This document shows positions 1 to 11,437 of a stretch of DNA of 64,000 nt, in pieces. The stretch is taken from NCBI RefSeq assembly GCF_018342065.1, contig NZ_JAFDOE010000004.1:171957-235956 (forward strand), given 5' to 3'. This DNA is from Citrobacter sp. FP75 (GTDB lineage: Bacteria; Pseudomonadota; Gammaproteobacteria; Enterobacterales; Enterobacteriaceae). The number at the start of each line of letters is the position of its first letter. The first letter of the stretch is position 1. The notes under the pieces are model-generated. The model was not told where the DNA came from, ran no database searches, and saw only the letters and a program-made list of their open reading frames with translations. Both the position numbers and the translations under genes were made by a program.

Positions 1-1701
1 CACATTATCGGGTTTCATTCCCACCGCCCGGCCAATTATTTTTTTAGCATCACAGGTGTCCGTAAACGTGACGGCTACACCGGTCATTTCTTCAATCAGA
101 TCCGGGCAGAGATAGTTCTCTATTTCACGTTTGCGCGTGGCGAAGAATACCTTACCGGCATCCTCCACTTCTTTTTTACGTTTCTGAATGGACAGAACCT
201 GTGCAGGGTCTCCCCCAATATCGGAGTCCAGAAATACGCACCAGGGAAGCCCCAGATCGTTGGCCAGATTCAATGTCACCCAGTGTTTGACGCTGCCACA
301 CCCTCCTATGAGGACTGGCACTATTTTCACGTCCTCCAGAGAGGCTGGCAACATACCTGACTGTTTTAATGAACTGGCCGCATGCCTCAGGAAAGTGACA
401 TCCGACTTTCCCTCTACCAGAACTATCCCCTGCGCCCTTTCCATACCGGTCTCTGGCAGCACCCCCAGGCTTTCAGTCGCTTCCTTCAGCACAGCGTCAT
501 CCGGCATTTTTACTACGGGTTCACCCGCCTCATTTCGGGTGACATAACGTACGCCTTCGACAGGGATCAATCCGGCCAGCGCCGGGACATGGGTGGTGAC
601 GATAATCTGACGGTGCGGCTGGCCTGCCAGTGCCAGTAACGCTTTCATCAGCATCATCTGATAGTTCGGATGCTGTGACGTTTCAGGCTCCTCTATGGCA
701 TAAATCACATTTCTGGGCGTCCCCGCGACATGCTTCTCGGCCTCAGCCCGGAAAAAATTCAACAGGATAAGCCTCCTTATCCCGCTGCCGCGCTTATTGA
801 TGGGGATGCCATTTTCCCCGTCCAGGGTGAAACTGAAGGTCCACTTGGGTTTCTCCTTAAATCGTGGAGTCAGTTCACTGGCGAGTTCGGGGGCCATTTC
901 ACGTAATTTATCCAGCGTTCTCTGTGCGACATCCAGTACGCTGTCCTGGATCTCATTTTCCAGCGCTGTAATTTTGTCCTGCAGCGCAGCCTGAGCGTCT
1001 TTTACGGCCTGCTGTAAGGGGTTTTTAGCTTCTGAATCCCCGTCGCTGCTTTCCCTGTCGGCTTTGAAAATCGCATACGTGGGCAGCAAATCGAGGATCT
1101 TACCCCATAATGATTTTGTGTCGGTTCCAAACTCTTTATCGACATCCAGCAACATTTCAGAACAGGTATAGGGAGCGGCGGCTTCCCTGATGGCCTGACG
1201 CCATAACGATGCAGTGCGTTTATCCGCCACATTTTTTTCAGCTTCTTTTCCCACCGCCCTGAGCTCGGAAATTTTCATTGCCAGTAAGTTTCTCAGGGGC
1301 TCCTCTTCGGGATGGATGCAGCGGATGCAGGTCTGCTCCGGTTTTCCTGAAGTCGTTGCTTTAAACGTTTTGACGATTTCAAAATTGCCGTCTTCATTCA
1401 GCAGATGTTCTGAGGCGAGCGTGGTCTGCACCCTGTCGTCGATCATGATAAAATCGGGCAGGTCATCAAATTCACAGGCTATTTCAAAACGGCCGTCCCC
1501 TTCTCTTAGGCTGAAACAGTTCATGTCATTCTTGTCAGCCTTCATTCCTTCTGTTTCAAAAAAAATAGCCAGCGCTTCCAGAATCGTTGACTTCCCAAAG
1601 TCATTACGACCGACAATACCCGTCATGCTTTCATCAATAATGATTTCAGTAGAGTTTCTGTAGCCTCTGAAGTTTTTCAGTTTTAATTTTCTGAGCCGCA
1701 T
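1..1701 (-). CDS. OLD-family ATP-dependent endonuclease, C-terminus beyond window edge
   Basis: The minus strand is open from an ATG at 1701 to position 1 (567 codons), so the gene is cut by the window edge. The start of the protein reads MRLRKLKLKNFRGYR, typical of SMC/OLD-type ABC ATPases. A Walker A motif GRNDFGKST follows at about residues 30-38, and an ATPase segment YAIEEPETSQHPNYQ lies near the middle. A TOPRIM domain comes after it, with LVEGKSD around Glu430 and FLDSD at Asp492/Asp494. This layout is that of OLD nucleases (class 1) and of Gabija GajA. Such genes are frequent anti-phage cargo. A UvrD-like partner (GajB) would lie left of position 1 and cannot be checked. The gene is cargo of the Tn7-like element. 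Confidence 0.85.
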   Translation of the reverse strand, partial: MRLRKLKLKNFRGYRNSTEIIIDESMTGIVGRNDFGKSTILEALAIFFETEGMKADKNDMNCFSLREGDGRFEIACEFDDLPDFIMIDDRVQTTLASEHLLNEDGNFEIVKTFKATTSGKPEQTCIRCIHPEEEPLRNLLAMKISELRAVGKEAEKNVADKRTASLWRQAIREAAAPYTCSEMLLDVDKEFGTDTKSLWGKILDLLPTYAIFKADRESSDGDSEAKNPLQQAVKDAQAALQDKITALENEIQDSVLDVAQRTLDKLREMAPELASELTPRFKEKPKWTFSFTLDGENGIPINKRGSGIRRLILLNFFRAEAEKHVAGTPRNVIYAIEEPETSQHPNYQMMLMKALLALAGQPHRQIIVTTHVPALAGLIPVEGVRYVTRNEAGEPVVKMPDDAVLKEATESLGVLPETGMERAQGIVLVEGKSDVTFLRHAASSLKQSGMLPASLEDVKIVPVLIGGCGSVKHWVTLNLANDLGLPWCVFLDSDIGGDPAQVLSIQKRKKEVEDAGKVFFATRKREIENYLCPDLIEEMTGVAVTFTDTCDAKKIIGRAVGMKPDNV

Positions 1702-2263
1702 ATGAAGTCCTGTGTGTAAGAAAGCGTTTTGCTGCAACCTGAATACAAAATATATTTTCAAATGCCTGCCAACATGCAGGGATAACCGTTATTCAGAATA
1801 TCTTAACGACATTTCTGGATTATGATCTGGTCGCGCTTTCTGAACTTTACTGCTCCTCAAAACACCGGAAGCCAACTTGTGGTTCGATACATGGCTAAGT
1901 TAAAACTCCAGAATGATGGGTAATAATTTCAATGCTCATTATATTTTTTGGAACTGACTCATGGCTTTTATGACTTAAATGATAATAATACACATTCTTT
2001 GATATTAATTATGTCGTACGGACATTGATAAATTTAAAGGTAGATAGATTTTCATTTACGGATTATTTCCTAAATTCATCGATAATGTGATCGACATAAA
2101 ATTTTCATTTAAGAGTGAAGAGATAATTTATGGTTGTCCGAAACAGCTCAAACTGGTGTATTTAACATAACAGAAGAAACGAAAGGCTTCATAGCAACCT
2201 GATACTTCAGGCCGCTAAGGGGTTAATATTGCTGCAGACAATTAGACCGGGAAGCGCATGGCG
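1702..2263. other. AT-rich intergenic region without a recognisable gene
   Basis: No supported gene lies between the nuclease start and the end of the HipB-like gene. The part next to 1701 should hold the nuclease promoter. A perfect copy of the 8-base transposon terminus TGTCCGAA occurs at 2135-2142 on the plus strand, but the repeats expected behind a real end are missing. A HipA- or HipT-type kinase, which normally follows a hipB gene, is absent here. Confidence 0.5.
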
Positions 2264-2563
2264 TCACCATTTCTCCCGCCTGGCTGGAAGTGAAGAATCA
2301 TTGTGCAAAGCTCCGTATTCGGGCTTTGCATCTGACAATGGTTCCCTGGATGAAAGTACGATCTCCACTCCAAGGACGCTGAACACTCTAAACAAACGCT
2401 CAAAACCCACACTTGCAGGGTTGGCCTCCAGTCGGGCATAAGTTTGCTGTGTTACACCCAAACGTTCAGAAACATCTCTTTGCGTCAGTCCATTGGCTTT
2501 GCGAAAGCCGATTAAAACAGGACGCAACTGATTCAAGGTCTTCAAAGCGTATTGAGTGTTCAT
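2264..2563 (-). CDS. HipB-like XRE-family repressor, orphan
   Basis: This 99-residue protein has a central helix-turn-helix of the XRE/HipB type: LIGFRKANGLTQRDVSERLGV followed by TQQTYARLEANPASV. The C-terminal extension after FSVLGVEIVL is hydrophilic and charged. The start at 2563 (MNTQYALKTL) is preferred over an upstream in-frame codon because the operator-like repeats lie just beyond it. HipB proteins are antitoxins and autorepressors of hipBA modules. No kinase gene follows within the 560 bases downstream, so the gene is either a stand-alone repressor or the remnant of a toxin-antitoxin module. It is oriented like the tns genes and the nuclease. Confidence 0.7.
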   Translation of the reverse strand: MNTQYALKTLNQLRPVLIGFRKANGLTQRDVSERLGVTQQTYARLEANPASVGFERLFRVFSVLGVEIVLSSREPLSDAKPEYGALHNDSSLPARREKW

Positions 2564-2608
2564 AAGTGATCTTCCGTATCGACGGGTTAACAAGCACAAC
2601 GAATGGAT

Positions 2609-2658
2609 TTACAGCAGATAAGCTGTAATACTCATTAACAGACTATAGGCTGTAATAC
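2609..2658. promoter_or_regulatory. Probable operator of the HipB-like gene: tandem inverted repeats
   Basis: A perfect inverted repeat TTACAGC-6-GCTGTAA occupies 2609-2628. A second, weaker copy spans 2635-2655, with ACAG and CTGTAA arms. The right arms form direct repeats (TAAGCTGTAATAC and TAGGCTGTAATAC) 27 bases apart. The pair sits 46-92 bases upstream of the HipB-like start codon, as expected for autorepression by a dimeric XRE protein. The role is inferred from position and symmetry. Confidence 0.6.
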
Positions 2659-2925
2659 GCCTCTTGCCAAGATTCGGCATCTTTCAAAAACAAGGCCGTG
2701 TTGAGTAAGCAGTACTGGTATCTAGCACCCCTGACCACTTTGCTTGAGAGTGACCCAGTGACATTTATCGTGATCGTAGGTCTTTTAGACGTTGTTGCTA
2801 ACCGGCATCATACTCAGGTGGTAACCCCCAGGGATACTCGGGAAGTGATAATTTATTCCCGCCCTAATCAAAATATATAACCCTATCTTATTAGCTTTCT
2901 TAGTAGTTTATAAATGAAGTAAAAA
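2659..2925. other. Spacer between the tns operon and cargo; no supported gene
   Basis: I see nothing convincing here. A 60-codon open frame on the plus strand starts with TTG, lacks a good ribosome-binding site and resembles no family I know. The stretch separates the end of the second tniQ gene from the regulatory region of the HipB-like gene. Confidence 0.4.
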
Positions 2926-3852
2926 TTAGCGAAGAAGCTTTACATTAAAAAGTGAGCAAAAATTTTTACCATTGAACCGGCAAAATTTGCAATCTGCGGC
3001 TTTTAGCCTGAGAAAATCCACATTAACAGAATAATCATCAAGTCCAACAGAGGCATAACTTACGTCCTCGAATAAATCGGTAATAAATGAGTTGAAATTA
3101 CAAAAATTAACCTCACTCAATATCCTGAACACCGCAGAAATATAACTACTATGCATTATCCTGACTTCAATAACCTTTAATAAACTAGAATGCGATTTAC
3201 TTTTAAAGAGGTCAAAGAGAAAGTAAACCAGCTCATTTTTATTGTCAGAAATCCATTTTAAAATTTTATCCCTGGCACATGGCAATAAATACACTGGAGT
3301 TTTGAAAGGATTTGAAATGTCAACCACAAGGGAACAATAACCATGAGGATTTATTCCACTTATAATTAAGTCACTAAGTCCTTTCACTGCATCCAAATAG
3401 TTGTCAAAACAAACCTCATATAAACAGGTACTATGAGCTGCACATTTAGATTCAAACAACCATCTATGACGAAGATAACCAATGCCTTTAGAGTGTATAT
3501 CTTCAATAATACATTTATGGCAGTAACGAATCTTTGAGATGTTTACCAATGGATATGAATTAGTTATGTGTAAATTATTTCGACAGGCATCTTCAACAGC
3601 GTTGAAATACCCGTAAACACCAGAAGATAACGACACTATATTGGAAGTTAGTATATAACCATTTCTTGTGGCAAGAATGTCATATATATCCTGCAAACTA
3701 TGCAATTTGTACATATCAATCAGTTCGAGCCGAGGAAAGGCATCGTACCTTAGTTCACCATGCTTAGATATTATGTTCCTGCAATTGGATAAGTTATACA
3801 TTATCTGTGAACGCAGAAGAAAACTGTGCCACAATTCATTTTCGTAAACCAT
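2926..3852 (-). CDS. Second TniQ/TnsD-family targeting protein, short form
   Basis: This 308-residue protein directly follows tnsD (11-base gap) and closes the transposition operon. A TniQ-type zinc motif is visible: CHKC at residues 111-114, a Trp at 131, and CAAH at 137-140. A further Cys cluster, CKFC then FC, sits near the C-terminus. It is shorter than TnsD and lacks the long C-terminal DNA-binding half. In Tn7 this operon position is taken by tnsE, but this protein shows no TnsE features. Elements with two TniQ-family proteins are known (for example type I-B CRISPR-associated Tn7-like elements). Whether this one cooperates with TnsD at yhiN or serves a second target route cannot be told from sequence. 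Family call is fairly safe; role is inference. Confidence 0.7.
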   Translation of the reverse strand: MVYENELWHSFLLRSQIMYNLSNCRNIISKHGELRYDAFPRLELIDMYKLHSLQDIYDILATRNGYILTSNIVSLSSGVYGYFNAVEDACRNNLHITNSYPLVNISKIRYCHKCIIEDIHSKGIGYLRHRWLFESKCAAHSTCLYEVCFDNYLDAVKGLSDLIISGINPHGYCSLVVDISNPFKTPVYLLPCARDKILKWISDNKNELVYFLFDLFKSKSHSSLLKVIEVRIMHSSYISAVFRILSEVNFCNFNSFITDLFEDVSYASVGLDDYSVNVDFLRLKAADCKFCRFNGKNFCSLFNVKLLR

Positions 3853-3863
3853 ATCACTCCCTC

Positions 3864-5420
3864 TTATTTAATTAGATTCTTTTTCCTGAGAAGTGTCATT
3901 GTCATTGGTAGTTTATCTCTGTATTTCAAAAGCCAGTTATGCCCCCCCAGTAAAGCATCCAGGCTTGTAAGTGACATCGGGTATTGCCCCTGAGATAAAA
4001 CAACATTTATTAATGATGATGAGATTATATCTCTCTCGCTCCAGTCTACTCTTTTATTTCTATAACATCGTACTGCTTTAGGAAGACAGGAATTAAGCCA
4101 GCCATTTTCATGTTTATTTAGCCAAAAGAAACTAGCATAACAACTTTCCTTGACTAACTTTCGCGTTACAGAAATGGATTGATTATGTATAAATCTTAAT
4201 ATTTTCTGCTTATGACGCCGTCTTAAAGAATCTTTTTTACATTTTTTACGCCATGAGCATAAACCGTAACAAGATGAAATTACAGAGGATACAGTTCCTT
4301 CCGATAATGAGTTTTTCTCAGCTATGGATGCCAGACTAAACCCCCTTACAGCCATAGACTTGATAAGCAATTCAGTGAATATATTAATTTTTGTGTTTCG
4401 CTTAAACGCCCTCAGGTATTTTTTATAAATAAGTGTTTTAATGTAACATCTGCTGCGATTAAATTCTCTCCCAAGGTTGCTAACACTAGTATTATTTTCA
4501 GCCATATGAAAGCTGTATTCCTTATGACTTTTAAAGATTTCTTTCTTTTTATTAGGACGACTTCCTGCATACGTTGGCCAGCAAGTATTTAACAAACAAT
4601 AACAAAGCAAAAGGTGCTTTGTGGGATGCTGACAACATTTATCTTTGAGTATAGGCTCCCAGTAGTGATAATCAGTAAGGGATGTCGGTAGAAGCTCCGA
4701 TGAACCCTCCCCAAATAACTGGCACTTAGCATAAACATGTGCGTAAAATACATTTTTCTTCAGATTCCCGTCCAATGATAATAAATTTAACTTTTTAAGT
4801 ACATCCATGTAATTTGGGTGACAAATTTCTTTTCTTCTGATTATATTTATGGACTCATAACAAAATTTAGCAAAATCGAAGTCTGTCTCATTGCTGAGTT
4901 GTTCTGTATACGAAACAGGAGGCATCAGTCCAATACGTATGTGCGGTGCAGAAGGGACATTGATGCTTTCAAGCACTACCTGGTGCCGATGGCAGGTTGT
5001 AACCCCATGAAGTTGATGCGCCAGATGCCAATAAGTAACACCATAATGAAAAGTATCTTCACGAGCGCAAACCGGGCAAAACTTCAATAGTGTCCGCTGT
5101 CCTAGTGAAAAATTACTAAGGCGGCACAATCGATTAAGCCTGGCAGGGGTCGTGTTGAAATCCATAATTTCATTACGACTGATTGGTAGTGCCCAGGCAA
5201 ACAGAGGGAGTAAAGTCTGTTCATGCCAGAGCTGGTCTGCACTTTCGGATGTATGAAGAGAAATAGCCTTTAATCCTGAATTGAGAATTGGATGGACGCT
5301 CATATCAGGTTTGTGGAAAATGATCGTTAACAGAGAAGATGGGGACATACCGTACACGGTAGCTGTCCGACAAAACCGACTGAACAAGGATTCATCAGGT
5401 AAAACAGACAACATTCTCAT
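3864..5420 (-). CDS. tnsD: TnsD/TniQ site-selection protein
   Basis: The 518-residue protein is close to the size of Tn7 TnsD (508). The N-terminal TniQ domain carries CPVC at 115-118, the spacer with YWHLAHQLHG, and CHRH at 143-146, a CCCH zinc finger. The C-terminal half is basic and rich in helix-turn-helix-like segments (for example SLASIAEKNSLSEGTVSSVI near 360). TnsD binds a specific chromosomal sequence and recruits TnsC. Because this element sits at the end of yhiN, its target sequence is most likely the conserved 3' coding region of yhiN. The gene begins 41 bases after tnsC. The start MRMLSVLPDESLFSRF fits the family. Confidence 0.85.
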   Translation of the reverse strand: MRMLSVLPDESLFSRFCRTATVYGMSPSSLLTIIFHKPDMSVHPILNSGLKAISLHTSESADQLWHEQTLLPLFAWALPISRNEIMDFNTTPARLNRLCRLSNFSLGQRTLLKFCPVCAREDTFHYGVTYWHLAHQLHGVTTCHRHQVVLESINVPSAPHIRIGLMPPVSYTEQLSNETDFDFAKFCYESINIIRRKEICHPNYMDVLKKLNLLSLDGNLKKNVFYAHVYAKCQLFGEGSSELLPTSLTDYHYWEPILKDKCCQHPTKHLLLCYCLLNTCWPTYAGSRPNKKKEIFKSHKEYSFHMAENNTSVSNLGREFNRSRCYIKTLIYKKYLRAFKRNTKINIFTELLIKSMAVRGFSLASIAEKNSLSEGTVSSVISSCYGLCSWRKKCKKDSLRRRHKQKILRFIHNQSISVTRKLVKESCYASFFWLNKHENGWLNSCLPKAVRCYRNKRVDWSERDIISSSLINVVLSQGQYPMSLTSLDALLGGHNWLLKYRDKLPMTMTLLRKKNLIK

Positions 5421-5461
5421 TTACCCCACCTCTCTTTGACCGTTACGAACTGATGACCTCA

Positions 5462-6910
5462 TTACAATTTATTAAGTGGATCTGTATTTATAAGCCCGCA
5501 ACGCTGAAGAGCATCGTAGGTATTTTTCTTTTCAGCTGTTCTGGTGATAACAAGATCATGGTCAAGAGACAGTATTTTCTCGTCGAAATTGCGCATAACC
5601 TCGTCTATTTTTCTTACGAATTCCTTGTGCTGTGGCCTGTCTATATCTCCAGGGATCAAAGCTTTTAAGGGCTTCTCTGACATGAACTTAGCCGAAGCAT
5701 CACTTTCATTAGATGCAGAGAGCCATTTGGCTTCCTCGTCTTCAGTCGCTGCCCCCGGGAGTAAAGTATCCTTATATTCCTCCGTATGGCTTACGAGTAC
5801 CGGTACAGAGGCCGACAAGACTGCACCAGTTATGATTTCATTACCGCTACCGATAACCTTTAATTGTGCCCCCCGATAAATCATCTGAGCCAATCCAATG
5901 TTGCCTTTAGATAAAATGAATAATTTTTCGTTTAACTCATCATTTAATGGTGTTTCAACATTTGTCCATTGTAATGGCCATAAATAATGAATAAACGATT
6001 GCCAGTCTTGTGAGTCGTATCTGACATTTGAAATTTTCATATAACCACCAGACTCTGCCCGCCTGGCAATTCTCATTTTCTTTGTCAGAGTCTCGTCAAA
6101 AGGATGATTTCCACAAAAAACCATAGATACCCCCATCGAATCTACAATTTCATGTAAAAAATCAATCAACTTACTCTCACCTCCAGTTCTTGAAAATTTT
6201 AGCCTCTGCATTTCATCAATAACAAGGATACCTAAAAATGATGATTTTATTCTTTGCGCAATCTGGCGAGCCAGAGCACCATTTCTAATCTCTGGTGTAG
6301 TTCGTTCAATACCAATTGCATCATCTAATTTTTGTAAAATCTCTTCACAAAGGTCTCTCACACTTGAGTTGTATGGACAATTAATCTTTACCCATACGAT
6401 TTGCTTACTGAAGCCGGGAAAAACTCCTTTATAGCTGCTGTGTTCTATAATCTGAGGGAAATGATCCATGACTTGCTCGATCATGGTAGTTTTTCCAGAA
6501 CCACTCATTCCAACTATCGTAATGGTTTCAGCCTGGGATTTAAAATATCCACTTTCGGGTTCAATATCAGGACGCTCAGTCCCATAGTAATGAAGATATT
6601 GAATAGTTCCGCTTTTTAAAGGATTACGGGCTGCATAGCTTTCCCTAAGTGCCCGTAAAATCATTTTATAAGCCTGGATAAGATTGGTTTGAGGGCAACG
6701 GAATTTCTTTATACGTTCGACATACTGCTCTCTAACATTCGCCGGGGCAGTCCAGCGGATTTTTTCGTCAATTTCGGGAAAATAACTCATTTCCAGAAGT
6801 ACTTCATCTTCCGTAAGCGCTTCAGGAAGTGCTTCAATTAAGGGGTTGCCACGATACTCAGGTAACTCCTGTTCTTTATATATCGCTGAAACGCTCCGTA
6901 TAAGGTTCAT
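5462..6910 (-). CDS. tnsC: TnsC AAA+ ATPase, transposition regulator
   Basis: This is the 482-residue AAA+ regulator that links the target-choosing TniQ protein to the TnsAB transposase. The Walker A motif GMSGSGKTT lies at about 134-142 and the Walker B motif GILVIDEMQRL at about 227-237. Sensor-type residues follow in VFCGNHPFDETLTKKMRIARR. Length is modestly below Tn7 TnsC (555). The start codon overlaps the tnsB stop by one base (both use 6910), so translation is coupled. The C-terminal tail after residue 380 is less conserved and may contact TniQ or TnsAB. Confidence 0.9.
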   Translation of the reverse strand: MNLIRSVSAIYKEQELPEYRGNPLIEALPEALTEDEVLLEMSYFPEIDEKIRWTAPANVREQYVERIKKFRCPQTNLIQAYKMILRALRESYAARNPLKSGTIQYLHYYGTERPDIEPESGYFKSQAETITIVGMSGSGKTTMIEQVMDHFPQIIEHSSYKGVFPGFSKQIVWVKINCPYNSSVRDLCEEILQKLDDAIGIERTTPEIRNGALARQIAQRIKSSFLGILVIDEMQRLKFSRTGGESKLIDFLHEIVDSMGVSMVFCGNHPFDETLTKKMRIARRAESGGYMKISNVRYDSQDWQSFIHYLWPLQWTNVETPLNDELNEKLFILSKGNIGLAQMIYRGAQLKVIGSGNEIITGAVLSASVPVLVSHTEEYKDTLLPGAATEDEEAKWLSASNESDASAKFMSEKPLKALIPGDIDRPQHKEFVRKIDEVMRNFDEKILSLDHDLVITRTAEKKNTYDALQRCGLINTDPLNKL

Positions 6911-9033
6911 TATTCTGCGTCCTCAGTCTTCTTCTTACCTTTTAACCATCTTTGTTTCTCCTCCCGGCCAGGCAAAAGCAGAACCTTACTGGATGACGGA
7001 AGTAGGGGTTCAGGTCTTCCATTAGCAACATCAGTTCGCCCTAATGAATCAAGTTCATTTTTCCTGTTCTTTTTAATATCTTTACCATGTACCCGTCGAG
7101 ATTCGTATATTTCATTTAATCTTTCGTTACCTTTCTTGTTAAAATCATCTTTATTATTGATATTGCTGAGTGAATCCAGAGTAAATAAATTAATTTCTTT
7201 TTGAGTATCTACCCAATCAGCCATTACATCTGTATCAAGATGAGCTTTACCTTTAAATATATCTCTTTTCTTAAGCAGGTAATGCTTTTTGAAAATGCTA
7301 TTTTTGTCAAATCTTACATATATATAATCTACGCAATTGTCATCTATTCTTGCTTCACAAGTGGTTCTTCCAAATACTCTGGCACCTGATGCAATGTCTG
7401 GATCACATTCATAAAAAAGATTATTGTACTGAATCCCACCGGCGGTAATGTTAGCGTTCACAGGGATCAACAATCGTGCGATCACTTCGTCGGCCCCAAC
7501 GGCTCTTGCGCTGAATCTCCCGTGCTTTAAGCTTATCATCCAACTATTTTTTGGTGATATTACGAGATCATTTTCAATCAGTAAGGGATTGATATAAGCC
7601 AGTTCTTCATATGTTCTCTGATTATGTGCAAGTATCTCCCGAATCAGTAAAGACGTGACCTCCTGAATCGTTAAACAAGCCCTGGATTGCGGTGTTGGCG
7701 CTCCTTTAACAATCTTACCCCTTCGTGTTGTTCCAATAAGCCTATGAATAACTTCATCATTTAGAATACCGAAACAGCGTTCAACAATGCTTTTTCTGTC
7801 GCCTCTACCGACTGGCGCAAACTCAAGTTTTGTCAGGGGGGTCATCTTTTCCTGAGGTTTAAGACCAATCATCTCCCCGTTGTCACACATCAATGTTAAT
7901 GGAATATGAGAACAAGGCCAATCATCATTAGTAATAGAGATTCCAAATAATCTACAATATTCTTTTTTTGGCATAAAGCAATTTGCTAACGCTTGTCGGG
8001 CAGCTCGCCATGAAGCATGGTATAAAGAAACATGAAGGCCAACAATCATTCTTGTTGCGCGATCCACCACTGTATAAATAGTTGGGCGCCCAATGACTTT
8101 TCGTCTGTTTAAACTCGAAATAAGATGTACATCAGCGACAGTTGAGTCTATTTCGAAAACATCACCCGGTAAAACAGTTGTATTAGCCGCACTACCTAAA
8201 AGCGCCCGCATTTTGAGGTCTATTTCTTTTTTCGTGTTCTTCTTCTTTATCGAGAAATCTTTAGTGAAGAGTTTTTTATTCCAGTATGAAAATTGTTTTA
8301 AAGAAGGAACATATGGAGCTCTATTTTCTAAGTTCGCTGTTTTAATTTCATCCCTAAAATACAAATCAATATGTCTCTCTAATGTTTTCTTTATCGTATC
8401 TCCGTTAACTTTATAATGATACATAATGAGAGATTTTCTAATATTATTTATATCTCTTTCATTAAGAATGAAAACACGTGAACGTTCATTAGGTAATGCT
8501 CTGTTTTTCTTGGAATTCCCAAGTTTAATTTCATGTTTGATTCTACTTTTCCCAGCGGCACCACAGTTCGAGAATGCGGGTAGTAATGCATAAACATCCT
8601 GCCCATGTCGCCAGTACAACGCCAGAAGCGTTCTGATAGTATATTGTGATATTTTTTTATTTCTGGAGTAGTCCATTAAAAGGTGAGACTTTTTATGTAA
8701 TGCATAGTCGAACAGAAACATTCTGTCATCTACAAGATCTTTAATGATATTGTAATTTTCATCTCGCCTTCCCCTGTCTTCATCTGTTATTTCTTTCTCA
8801 TCTACTAACATATATGAAGGGTATATATAATCTTTACAAGTTATGCTATTTGATTCAATATAATATTTAAACAATGAAAATGAGAAAGGAATTGGCTTAC
8901 CCGTTCTTTCTGATTTTATTTTAAACAAAATTAACAAATCAACCTTTTTGTCAAAATCCAAAACACGATAAAGCCCCTCTGCAAGCAAATCAGTGCCTTG
9001 AGAGAGCCAGACTGAATTTCTAATAATATCCAT
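6910..9033 (-). CDS. tnsB: TnsB DDE transposase
   Basis: The 707-residue protein is the DDE integrase-type transposase that binds the element's ends and joins 3' ends to target DNA. The catalytic triad is visible as Asp296 (VFEIDST), Asp384 (LMCDNGE) and Glu418 (KSIVERCFG). Spacings of 88 and 34 residues are near those I recall for Tn7 TnsB (273, 361, 396). The N-terminal 250 residues are the end-binding part. The C-terminal tail is charged, as expected for the TnsC contact. The start overlaps the tnsA stop by 14 bases. Confidence 0.93.
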   Translation of the reverse strand: MDIIRNSVWLSQGTDLLAEGLYRVLDFDKKVDLLILFKIKSERTGKPIPFSFSLFKYYIESNSITCKDYIYPSYMLVDEKEITDEDRGRRDENYNIIKDLVDDRMFLFDYALHKKSHLLMDYSRNKKISQYTIRTLLALYWRHGQDVYALLPAFSNCGAAGKSRIKHEIKLGNSKKNRALPNERSRVFILNERDINNIRKSLIMYHYKVNGDTIKKTLERHIDLYFRDEIKTANLENRAPYVPSLKQFSYWNKKLFTKDFSIKKKNTKKEIDLKMRALLGSAANTTVLPGDVFEIDSTVADVHLISSLNRRKVIGRPTIYTVVDRATRMIVGLHVSLYHASWRAARQALANCFMPKKEYCRLFGISITNDDWPCSHIPLTLMCDNGEMIGLKPQEKMTPLTKLEFAPVGRGDRKSIVERCFGILNDEVIHRLIGTTRRGKIVKGAPTPQSRACLTIQEVTSLLIREILAHNQRTYEELAYINPLLIENDLVISPKNSWMISLKHGRFSARAVGADEVIARLLIPVNANITAGGIQYNNLFYECDPDIASGARVFGRTTCEARIDDNCVDYIYVRFDKNSIFKKHYLLKKRDIFKGKAHLDTDVMADWVDTQKEINLFTLDSLSNINNKDDFNKKGNERLNEIYESRRVHGKDIKKNRKNELDSLGRTDVANGRPEPLLPSSSKVLLLPGREEKQRWLKGKKKTEDAE

Positions 9034-9862
9034 TTGCGTTCAGTCCTATATAGTGGCCATTGGATATTATCTTTATCAGACCGGTTTCGAGTATTGGATA
9101 TGATAAATCAATTTTTATCATTTTTAATCCAATCATTGCCTGCAATAACATCATCGCTTCTTGTGCATCTACCCCAATGATTGATGAAATCATTGCACGT
9201 AGTCCCACTATGGGATAAACATCTGGTTTAAGCTTCCATAGGATTTTATCAAGAGGATATTTATCATAAAATACAGAACCATCTCTTAATACAGAAGTAA
9301 CCCAACAAATATTTTTACCGACGACGTTATTGAGTTCCGAGCCAACATAAATTTGAAACTCAACATCAATCAACTGCCAAAACATCCTCTCTATTTCAAG
9401 TTTTTGGGCTTCGCGTTCAGGTATGCTCTCGTTTTGTTTTACTGCTACAGCTTTGTATCGAAGTCCGCCTTCAGGAGTTCTCAAGGTCAGTAAAAAATCG
9501 GTTGTCATAACATTCAGAACTTCGACAGGTACTCCTCTTACTCCCCTCACCATAGGATGTTGAAAATGTAGATGATTTGCTATTTGTTGGGTAAGCCGGA
9601 GAGGAAAGAGTGGGAATTGTTCCCGGATATCAATCACCGAGTCATTAAACTCAGCCAGATAGAAAAAGTTACTTTCGACAGAAGAAAGGAGATGATGGTT
9701 TCGAAACGTCTTAAGGCCAAAGACTATCGAACGGTTTCCACGGGATTTAACGTCCTGAGCTCTAAGCCAGGGCTGATAACTTTGGCCATAGCCCACTCCT
9801 ATGCCGTCACCTAGCGCATTTTCATAATCCAAATAGGATTTGAGACGCCTACCCCTACCCAT
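9020..9862 (-). CDS. tnsA: TnsA 5'-strand endonuclease
   Basis: TnsA cuts the 5' ends of the element, making transposition cut-and-paste. The N-terminal restriction-like nuclease is recognisable. Its probable catalytic residues are Glu71 (FYLAEFNDSV), Asp122 (VMTTDFLL) and Lys142 (KAVAVKQNE), followed by the IREQFPL segment typical of TnsA. The spacing resembles that recalled for Tn7 TnsA (Glu63, Asp114, Lys132). I take the ATG at 9862 (280 residues). A TTG at 9874 would add four residues. The gene is the first of the tns operon and starts about 160 bases inside the right end, so its promoter must overlap the TnsB-binding repeats. Confidence 0.88.
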   Translation of the reverse strand: MGRGRRLKSYLDYENALGDGIGVGYGQSYQPWLRAQDVKSRGNRSIVFGLKTFRNHHLLSSVESNFFYLAEFNDSVIDIREQFPLFPLRLTQQIANHLHFQHPMVRGVRGVPVEVLNVMTTDFLLTLRTPEGGLRYKAVAVKQNESIPEREAQKLEIERMFWQLIDVEFQIYVGSELNNVVGKNICWVTSVLRDGSVFYDKYPLDKILWKLKPDVYPIVGLRAMISSIIGVDAQEAMMLLQAMIGLKMIKIDLSYPILETGLIKIISNGHYIGLNANGYY

Positions 9863-9893
9863 GATCGTACCCAAAAAACGACATTGATACGTA

Positions 9894-10020
9894 CCTATAT
9901 GTGCATTTTATAGTCTCCAACCCTATAACCACACATTCAGTAAGTATACAACATTAGCGTCGTTTTTTGAGAATGGTTACAACTTTAGTGCTTTGTGTAC
10001 AACTTTATTGTCTTCGGACA
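9894..10020 (-). repeat. Right transposon end with four TnsB-type binding repeats
   Basis: Reading inward on the minus strand, the terminus TGT (10020-10018) is followed by 22-base repeats at 10012-9991 (GACAATAAAGTTGTACAC...), 9991-9970 (GCACTAAAGTTGTAACC...), 9961-9940 (GACGCTAATGTTGTATAC...) and a weaker one at 9915-9894 (GACTATAAAATG...). Sites 1-3 share the core (A)TAA(A/T)GTTGTA. The outer two abut and the inner ones are spaced, as TnsB sites often are. The repeats also cover the probable tnsA promoter, which suggests autoregulation by TnsB. Confidence 0.85.
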
Positions 10021-11208
10021 AGGCACCAAATCTTGCGCACACGCCCAGGCGCTCGACCACGCCCACTGGAAGTTATACCCGCCCAGCCAGCCGGTGACGT
10101 CCATCACTTCACCGATAAAGTAGAGACCAGGTACTTTCCGGGCTTCCATTGTCCGTGACGACAGCTCGTTGGTGTCTACTCCACCCAGCGTCACTTCTGC
10201 CGTGCGATAACCTTCTGTACCGTTTGGCTGCACGCGCCATTCGGTCAGCGTCTCCACCAGCGTTTGCTGATCGCGCGCGTTAAGCTGCTTCAACGTCACG
10301 TCAGGAATTTGTCCCAACTGCTGCAAACACTCCACCAGCCGCTTTGGTAATTGCATCGCCAGCGTGTTCTTCAGGCTCTGGTTTGGGTGCGCGCTGCGCT
10401 GTTCATCGAGGAAGCTTTCGAGGTCTACATCTGGCAACAAATTAATGCTGACAAATTCACCTGGCTGCCAAAAACTGGAAATTTGTAAAACGGCCGGACC
10501 AGAAAGCCCGCGGTGCGTAAAGAGCAGGTTTTCACGAAATACGGTGCCATCTTCAGCGGTGATAACCGAAGGAACAGAGACGCCTGAAAGCACCTGAAGC
10601 TGCTCCAGCAGCGGCTTATGCAGAGTGAAAGGCACCAGACCAGCACGGGTCGGCAGAACCTTCAAACCAAACTGTTCGGCAATTTTATAACCAAACGGCG
10701 TAGCGCCAAGACCCGGCATCGAAAGCCCGCCGCTGGCAATCACCAGTTTATTCGCACCGACGGTCGCGCCGTTAAGCTCCAGCATGAAGCCCTCATCACC
10801 CCGCGCGACGCTCAGAACTTCGCTACGTAAGCGCATCGTAACGTTACCTTTTTCGCATTCCGCCACCAGCATATCGACAATTTGCTGCGCTGAGTCGTCG
10901 CAAAAAAGTTGGCCGAGCGTTTTTTCATGCCAGGCAATACCGTGTTTACCCACCAGATCGATAAAATCCCACTGGGTATAGCGCGCCAGCGCTGACTTGC
11001 AAAAATGGGGGTTTTGACTCAAATAGGCCGCAGGTTCTACATAAAGATTGGTAAAGTTACAACGCCCCCCGCCGGACATGAGGATCTTGCGTCCTGGCTT
11101 TTTCCCATTATCAATGAGCAGTACGCGACTACCTGTTTGTCCTGCCTGCGCGGCACAGAACATACCCGCTGCGCCAGCACCTATAATAACGGTATCAAAC
11201 CTTTCCAC
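9985..11208 (-). CDS. yhiN: YhiN flavoprotein, C-terminus replaced by transposon-encoded residues
   Basis: This is the HI0933-like NAD(P)/FAD oxidoreductase YhiN of unknown substrate. An N-terminal Rossmann motif (VIIGAGAAGMFCAAQAG) and the C-terminal GGYNFQWAWSSAWACAQD are intact. I place the start at the GTG at 11208 (VERFDTVIIGAG), matching E. coli YhiN, with a ribosome-binding site AGAGAGG upstream; an upstream ATG would add an unlikely extension. The native C-terminus ends a few residues after AQDL. Here the reading frame crosses the transposon terminus at 10020 and continues for eleven residues, CPKTIKLYTKH, to a TAA within the TnsB-binding repeats. The protein is thus slightly longer than the native 400 residues and probably still folds. 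Confidence 0.93.
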   Translation of the reverse strand: MERFDTVIIGAGAAGMFCAAQAGQTGSRVLLIDNGKKPGRKILMSGGGRCNFTNLYVEPAAYLSQNPHFCKSALARYTQWDFIDLVGKHGIAWHEKTLGQLFCDDSAQQIVDMLVAECEKGNVTMRLRSEVLSVARGDEGFMLELNGATVGANKLVIASGGLSMPGLGATPFGYKIAEQFGLKVLPTRAGLVPFTLHKPLLEQLQVLSGVSVPSVITAEDGTVFRENLLFTHRGLSGPAVLQISSFWQPGEFVSINLLPDVDLESFLDEQRSAHPNQSLKNTLAMQLPKRLVECLQQLGQIPDVTLKQLNARDQQTLVETLTEWRVQPNGTEGYRTAEVTLGGVDTNELSSRTMEARKVPGLYFIGEVMDVTGWLGGYNFQWAWSSAWACAQDLVPCPKTIKLYTKH

Positions 11209-11437
11209 GTTGCGATCCTCTCTAAAAAGCGGGCGTGAATTGTAAAGATTCCTCAGTGGTCGCACCAGCACCAAACCATCAAAAATAGGTATTTATCTGA
11301 ATTCTATAAGATAATTCTTTAGTGGTGTTATACAAAGCAGGAGACAAATCAAAAAAACTCTATATTTCACTTTGCCCGCGCCGCCAAAGTCACTGATAAT
11401 GCGCCGCGTTCATGTCCTCAAAATGGCGTAACGTCCT

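Follow-up and report, generated by a model that had tools for sequence, protein, structure and literature searches.

We find that yhiN of Citrobacter sp. FP75 is cut, in all likelihood, by an ordinary insertion of a Tn7-like transposon of the Tn6230 type with pco/sil cargo, and that the cut probably follows from two things, a nearly constant distance between conserved yhiN codons and the insertion point (hereafter the ruler) and the length of the tail of the host gene. According to this reading, TnsD would bind conserved codons close to the yhiN 3' end, and insertion would follow ∼ 62 nt after these codons begin, with a wobble reaching ∼ 3 bases, the spacing seen in the junctions. Enteric yhiN genes carry a few extra, poorly conserved codons, which the same ruler would remove. 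The reading frame, set by the wobble, would then run on into the AT-rich end of the element to the first chance stop.

Junction of yhiN with the transposon

The stretch analysed (the window, 64,000 nucleotides) corresponds to positions 171957-235956 of contig NZ_JAFDOE010000004.1. The features at the junction are:

9985..11208, minus strand: yhiN, encoding an HI0933-like FAD-binding oxidoreductase whose last residues derive from the transposon (Pfam PF03486 and PF22780, NCBIfam TIGR00275, translation)
9985..10020, minus strand: codons supplied by the element end, CPKTIKLYTKH followed by the stop TAA (translation)
9947..10010, minus strand: three repeats in the near end that resemble TnsB sites (9947-9959, 9978-9990 and 9998-10010)
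10021..10025, no strand: target-site duplication AGGCA, near copy; the second copy adjoins the other end of the element (contig position 144662)
10057..10083, minus strand: codons GGYNFQWAW, the probable core of TnsD recognition, 37-63 bp from the insertion point (no DNA is better conserved across 28 occupied yhiN sites)
1..10020, no strand: Tn6230-like element, the part within the window; the other 27.3 kb extends left on the contig

The longest ORF on the minus strand (9985-11274) ends in ...CAQDLVP-CPKTIKLYTKH*; alignment with relatives makes GTG at 11208 the probable start of yhiN. The terminus of the element, TGT, begins at 10020 on the minus strand and is entered in phase 0. The first stop stands at nt 36 of the element end, so that yhiN terminates inside the element (TAA, 9985-9987). 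The preliminary description, which had placed a Tn7-like end with its repeats at yhiN and had read the frame across it into a new C-terminus, is borne out on both points. By analogy with Tn7, the repeats would serve as TnsB sites. The run-on of 11 residues is what chance would give, since random sequence of the same composition averages 12.2 codons before a stop.

At a distance of 37.3 kb, the far end (...GTCAGGCAGGCA|TGTACACAGAC) likewise starts with TGT, with AGGCA before it. The element thus has the 5-bp duplication and the TGT...ACA ends of a yhiN-type Tn7-like transposon; lack of AGGCA at the far end had been named beforehand as evidence against the first interpretation. When the flanks of the window are joined without the element and with a single AGGCA, the minus strand reads GATTTGGTGCCTGCCTGA, which translates to ...CAQDLVPA* with TGA as stop. 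The unoccupied gene of a relative of the same genus (L031), the kind of empty site that the preliminary description had called for, reads ...CAQDLAPA* and aligns with the joined flanks. One residue (Ala) and the stop have therefore been exchanged for 11 residues and a stop, rather than the approximately six native residues estimated earlier. The idea that the tail difference is older than the element, the host gene already having read this way, can hardly be sustained: the joined flanks and L031 both have the short native tail and AGGCA is present at both ends, and a pre-existing altered tail, in favour of which nothing was seen, was rejected on the evidence of the empty site and the duplication.

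In a structural model of the window YhiN (23-row, mean pLDDT 81.9, pTM 0.69), the conserved codons fall in the last helix (378-392), residues 398-407 have pLDDT values < 50 and the added tail is predicted to be unstructured. Alignments with five of the six listed relatives of solved structure end at residues 405-416 of the 429-residue query, before the added tail; the sixth matches near the N-terminus only. We think that the appended tail is probably neutral.

The transposition genes of the element in the window are:

9020..9874, minus strand: tnsA (Pfam PF08722, E 1.5e-15)
6910..9033, minus strand: tnsB, transposase (position and annotation of near-identical copies as 'Tn7 transposition protein B' or 'transposase')
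5462..6910, minus strand: tnsC, AAA/TniB (Pfam PF13401 and PF05621)
3864..5420, minus strand: tnsD/TniQ, probable yhiN target selector (Pfam PF06527 and PF15978)
2926..3852, minus strand: 308-aa protein after tnsD, without Pfam or NCBIfam match

The genes tnsA, tnsB, tnsC and tnsD form one block, the assignment of tnsB resting on position and annotation and that of the others on Pfam. Pfam and NCBIfam searches with tnsB gave no match; plasmid copies that match it at 100% carry the transposase annotation. The tnsA-side end faces yhiN, and the insertion is at the 3' end of that gene. Tn7 lands ∼ 20 bp past the glmS stop, unlike the window element, and Tn7 proper at attTn7 downstream of glmS was rejected because the insertion is in yhiN. 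As for the tnsE of Tn7 proper, the ORF that follows tnsD (308 aa) matched nothing in Pfam or NCBIfam. This protein also occurs in the E. coli copies and is a candidate for a second targeting factor.

The cargo ORFs have matches to a multicopper oxidase for copper resistance, CopD, a P-type ATPase of the copper type, efflux parts (CusB-type and Cu(I)/Ag(I) outer-membrane) and sensor kinases for heavy metals, the pco/sil set as annotated in the E. coli copies. Judged by its site and gene content, the element would be a Tn7-like pco/sil transposon of the Tn6230 kind. At another locus (L008:11951-13717, minus strand) the element holds a 588-aa ATPase with weak, below-cut-off likeness to PtuA, RecF and Rad50, possibly a defence gene.

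Distance from the conserved codons and length of the host gene

Loci were collected with the window TnsA as query, which matched 14 of 392 genomes of the family, 9 of 369 of the class, 79 of 295 of a second family (that of genome G041), 2 of 17 of the genus and 55 of 394 of the order, sets that overlap one another; a related TnsA query matched 5 of the 25 genomes of one genus. At most 30 loci were read per TnsA search, plus E. coli records. The distance from the start of the GGYN codons to the element end was measured by script wherever both were seen (39 rows), and eight rows were removed as duplicates (four extra copies of the window; L111 and, from another collection, L010, which have the L017 junction; two E. 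coli rows with the L070 and L006 junctions). This leaves 31 yhiN junctions: 14 enteric, comprising 10 of family f1 (the window and one E. albertii record included) and 4 of E. coli, and 17 from five other families of the same order (f6, f7, f10, f21 and f25).

The offset is 59-65 nt in 30 of the 31 junctions and 52 nt in one (L088). It hardly differs between enteric hosts (59-64 nt, mean 61.9, n = 14) and the other families (60-65 nt, mean 62.3, n = 16 without L088; Mann-Whitney p = 0.48). The consequence for the gene does differ: yhiN is cut in all 14 enteric junctions, whereas in 16 of the 17 non-enteric ones its own stop ends at +60 and the element therefore lies at or just past an intact gene. 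Unoccupied yhiN genes (n = 30) have tails that vary in length and sequence; native stops are at +66 to +81 in the 28 enteric genes and at +60 (L045) and +84 (L044) in the two from other families, so a short tail is not universal beyond the enteric family. A longer enteric tail combined with the same ruler would result in loss of the last codons.

Some loci depart from this pattern. L088 (G891:C41, motif at 736 of the reverse complement) is the sole non-enteric junction with a cut yhiN; its tail is LSSDKKVCPLAKKFARYEDF, and its offset is ∼ 10 bases, or one helical turn, closer than the others. L061 and L084, both counted among the other-family junctions, have TAT instead of TGT at the end and may be decayed. 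In L061 and L087 the TnsA gene beside yhiN has one in-frame TAA, and L061 looks decayed. L118, outside the counts, has the element past an intact yhiN-like gene with a differing motif (GGFNFAWCW).

Across 28 occupied yhiN sites the conserved DNA is GG.GGcTatAAcTTcCA.TGGGC.TGG, with variation mostly at third codon positions. The accessible part of PMC2918618 describes such a pattern at attTn7 for the site bound by TnsD, and by that analogy the GGYNFQWAW codons are a plausible TnsD site. The same text places the TnsD site of attTn7 in conserved 3' codons, as is probable here, with insertion ∼ 25 bp beyond, and describes an insertion point without sequence requirement and a fixed orientation.

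We also examined 13 loci that lack the yhiN motif. Four are glmS-like (L057, L062, L120 and L121), the element in each lying past the stop of a gene recognized by eye as the 3' end of glmS; one is the yhiN-like L118, one (L116) starts at the element end, and the others have the element elsewhere or no visible end. The same end as at yhiN is found at sites without the gene (L011, L015, L047, L048 and L054-L056). Flanks are shared between L047 and L015 and between L048 and L011, perhaps the same genomes twice, and L054-L056 are alike. In L048 the end runs into an ORF that resembles an ABC exporter by eye, and the tail that it adds is once more VRGQ. The Tn6230-like element is likely to have a second targeting route. 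Plasmid records matching the junction query cover ≥ 80% of it in just 1 of 641 cases.

Reading frames and stop codons in the element end

In E. coli the junction was found in 634 of 5,426 genomes (E ≤ 1e-95). Among 60 evenly spaced rows of these 634 matches, 58 cover the same 251 bases as L006, which makes VRGQ alone the usual E. coli tail; the remaining two cover 252 bases (L076, with one more base further in but an unchanged register) and 248 bases (L074, offset 59). Exact matches among the best 60 of the 634 include at least two of the L070 form and at least four of the L075 form, counts that more-diverged variants could escape. The duplications move with the register (ATTGC in L006, GATTG in L075, TTGAT in L074), and these are therefore separate insertions. 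A mismatch occurs in one of the five duplications checked, L070 (TTGCA near, ATTGC far), which we take to reflect the gain of one base at the junction, a change that would have altered the tail and is seen in two strains. Two pattern searches for the far end and flank of the E. coli copies found neither for those copies; direct comparison with the K-12-type site located the far end in all four copies examined.

The preliminary description had proposed that the end is selected to hold one frame of yhiN open and had suggested looking for a conserved frame at other yhiN elements. The 14 enteric junctions use all three frames (phase 0, 3; phase 1, 4; phase 2, 7; chi-square p = 0.40; 2/4/8 if L070 is restored to its probable original register), which led us to discard a conserved frame through the end. 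The tails (VRGQ, CPKTIKLYTKH, CPRTIKLYTKH and SEDNKVVHKALKL among them) consist of 3-18 codons entirely of transposon DNA, and every frame of the enteric ends closes within 13-59 nt. In its general form, selection for an open yhiN frame with a working C-terminus from the element would explain why all 14 enteric junctions leave the gene readable, with 3-18 transposon codons in each, and why the first 12 nt of the enteric ends are free of stops. We nevertheless regard it as unlikely. Besides the use of all three frames, the commonest E. coli tail is only VRGQ, the identical end also occurs where there is no yhiN, and the ruler passes the native stop in 16 of 17 non-enteric junctions.

Stop distances point the same way. 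The first-stop distance of the frame that stays open longest was compared, for each of 10 ends, with 2,000 dinucleotide shuffles, and it was no different from the shuffles in any end (P(≤ observed) 0.10-0.49); an excess or a deficit of stops in the ends was rejected on this basis. Neither the maximum (p = 0.89) nor the mean stop distance (p = 0.60) differs between 6 distinct enteric and 17 other ends, and ends that never enter a coding frame are thus alike in both measures. Selection in the opposite direction, for rapid closure of all three frames to limit translation into the element, is less probable still. The window end does close all three frames within 44 nt, and the accessible text of PMC10201428 describes another Tn7-like right end with stops in all three frames, but shuffled versions of the window end do as well or better often enough (P(≤ observed) = 0.25), the 10 ends behave likewise and non-enteric ends are alike.

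One contrast between the groups was seen. The first 12 nt are free of stops in every frame in all 4 enteric end types, but in no more than 5 of the 17 ends from other families (Fisher p = 0.021 as given; p = 0.035 after pooling look-alike ends), a comparison made post hoc and uncorrected for descent. The shortage of very early stops may be a weak trace of frame-keeping. We consider it improbable that enteric-family yhiN-element ends have been cleared of very early stops in every frame, a frame-blind soft landing; if they have, YhiN would keep at least three extra tail codons in any register. Selection for frame-keeping is not needed to explain the junctions, because the ruler and the length of the host tail suffice.

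Relation to known elements and implications

Tn7-like elements at yhiN are known, as the preliminary description had supposed: in its available text, a 2024 review lists Tn6230 with the entry 'Targets yhiN att site, but molecular details are unknown' (PMC11406308). Tn6230 is confined to the yhiN-yhiM interval, a hotspot, in the E. coli set of PMC10121019, and the portion of PMC8865565 at hand gives tnsABCD as its core and 5 bp as the Tn7 duplication. The window element shares the yhiN site and tnsABCD with Tn6230, a likeness of site and gene content. The accessible sections of the respective papers also name yhiN as a TnsD safe-harbour locus (PMC10201428) and report a Cronobacter copper/silver transposon lying between yhiN and puuA (PMC3680222) and Vibrio elements beside yhiN, with an NAD(P)/FAD oxidoreductase adjoining tnsA in 93 of 413 sequences (PMC12671221). 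Tn7/pco/sil between yhiN and yhiM of E. coli J53 (pMG101-B) has the same kind of cargo and the same site, although the part consulted of PMC8417528 describes it as Tn7 at an attTn7 site between the genes, whereas the window insertion is inside the last yhiN codons.

A Tn7-like right end has been read as codons at the 3' end of a gene before, in VchCAST, where an in-frame linker was made in the laboratory (PMC10201428, accessible text); the window case is natural and uses whichever frame occurs. The accessible passages of the Tn6230 papers make no mention of the loss of the last yhiN codons, and we found no description of an altered YhiN tail in the parts consulted of the open-licence literature on yhiN, Tn6230 and Tn7-like ends. 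The yhiN-targeting kind is thus already known; what we add is the ruler, its dependence on the host and the use of three frames.

These data give base-level detail for an att site whose molecular details the review calls unknown in the part cited (PMC11406308). They also place the chromosomal pco/sil Tn7-like elements of E. coli KSC64 and KSC9, which were puzzling in the available text of PMC6211086, where their distance from glmS was noted and the reason asked: both records (NZ_CP018840.1 and NZ_CP018323.1) have the yhiN junction. For enteric hosts, the location 'between yhiN and yhiM' is corrected to 'inside the last yhiN codons', which accounts for the differing C-termini annotated for YhiN in element-carrying strains. 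A ruler set by conserved codons, whatever the position of the stop, would be harmless where the gene has a short tail and would alter the protein where the tail is longer.
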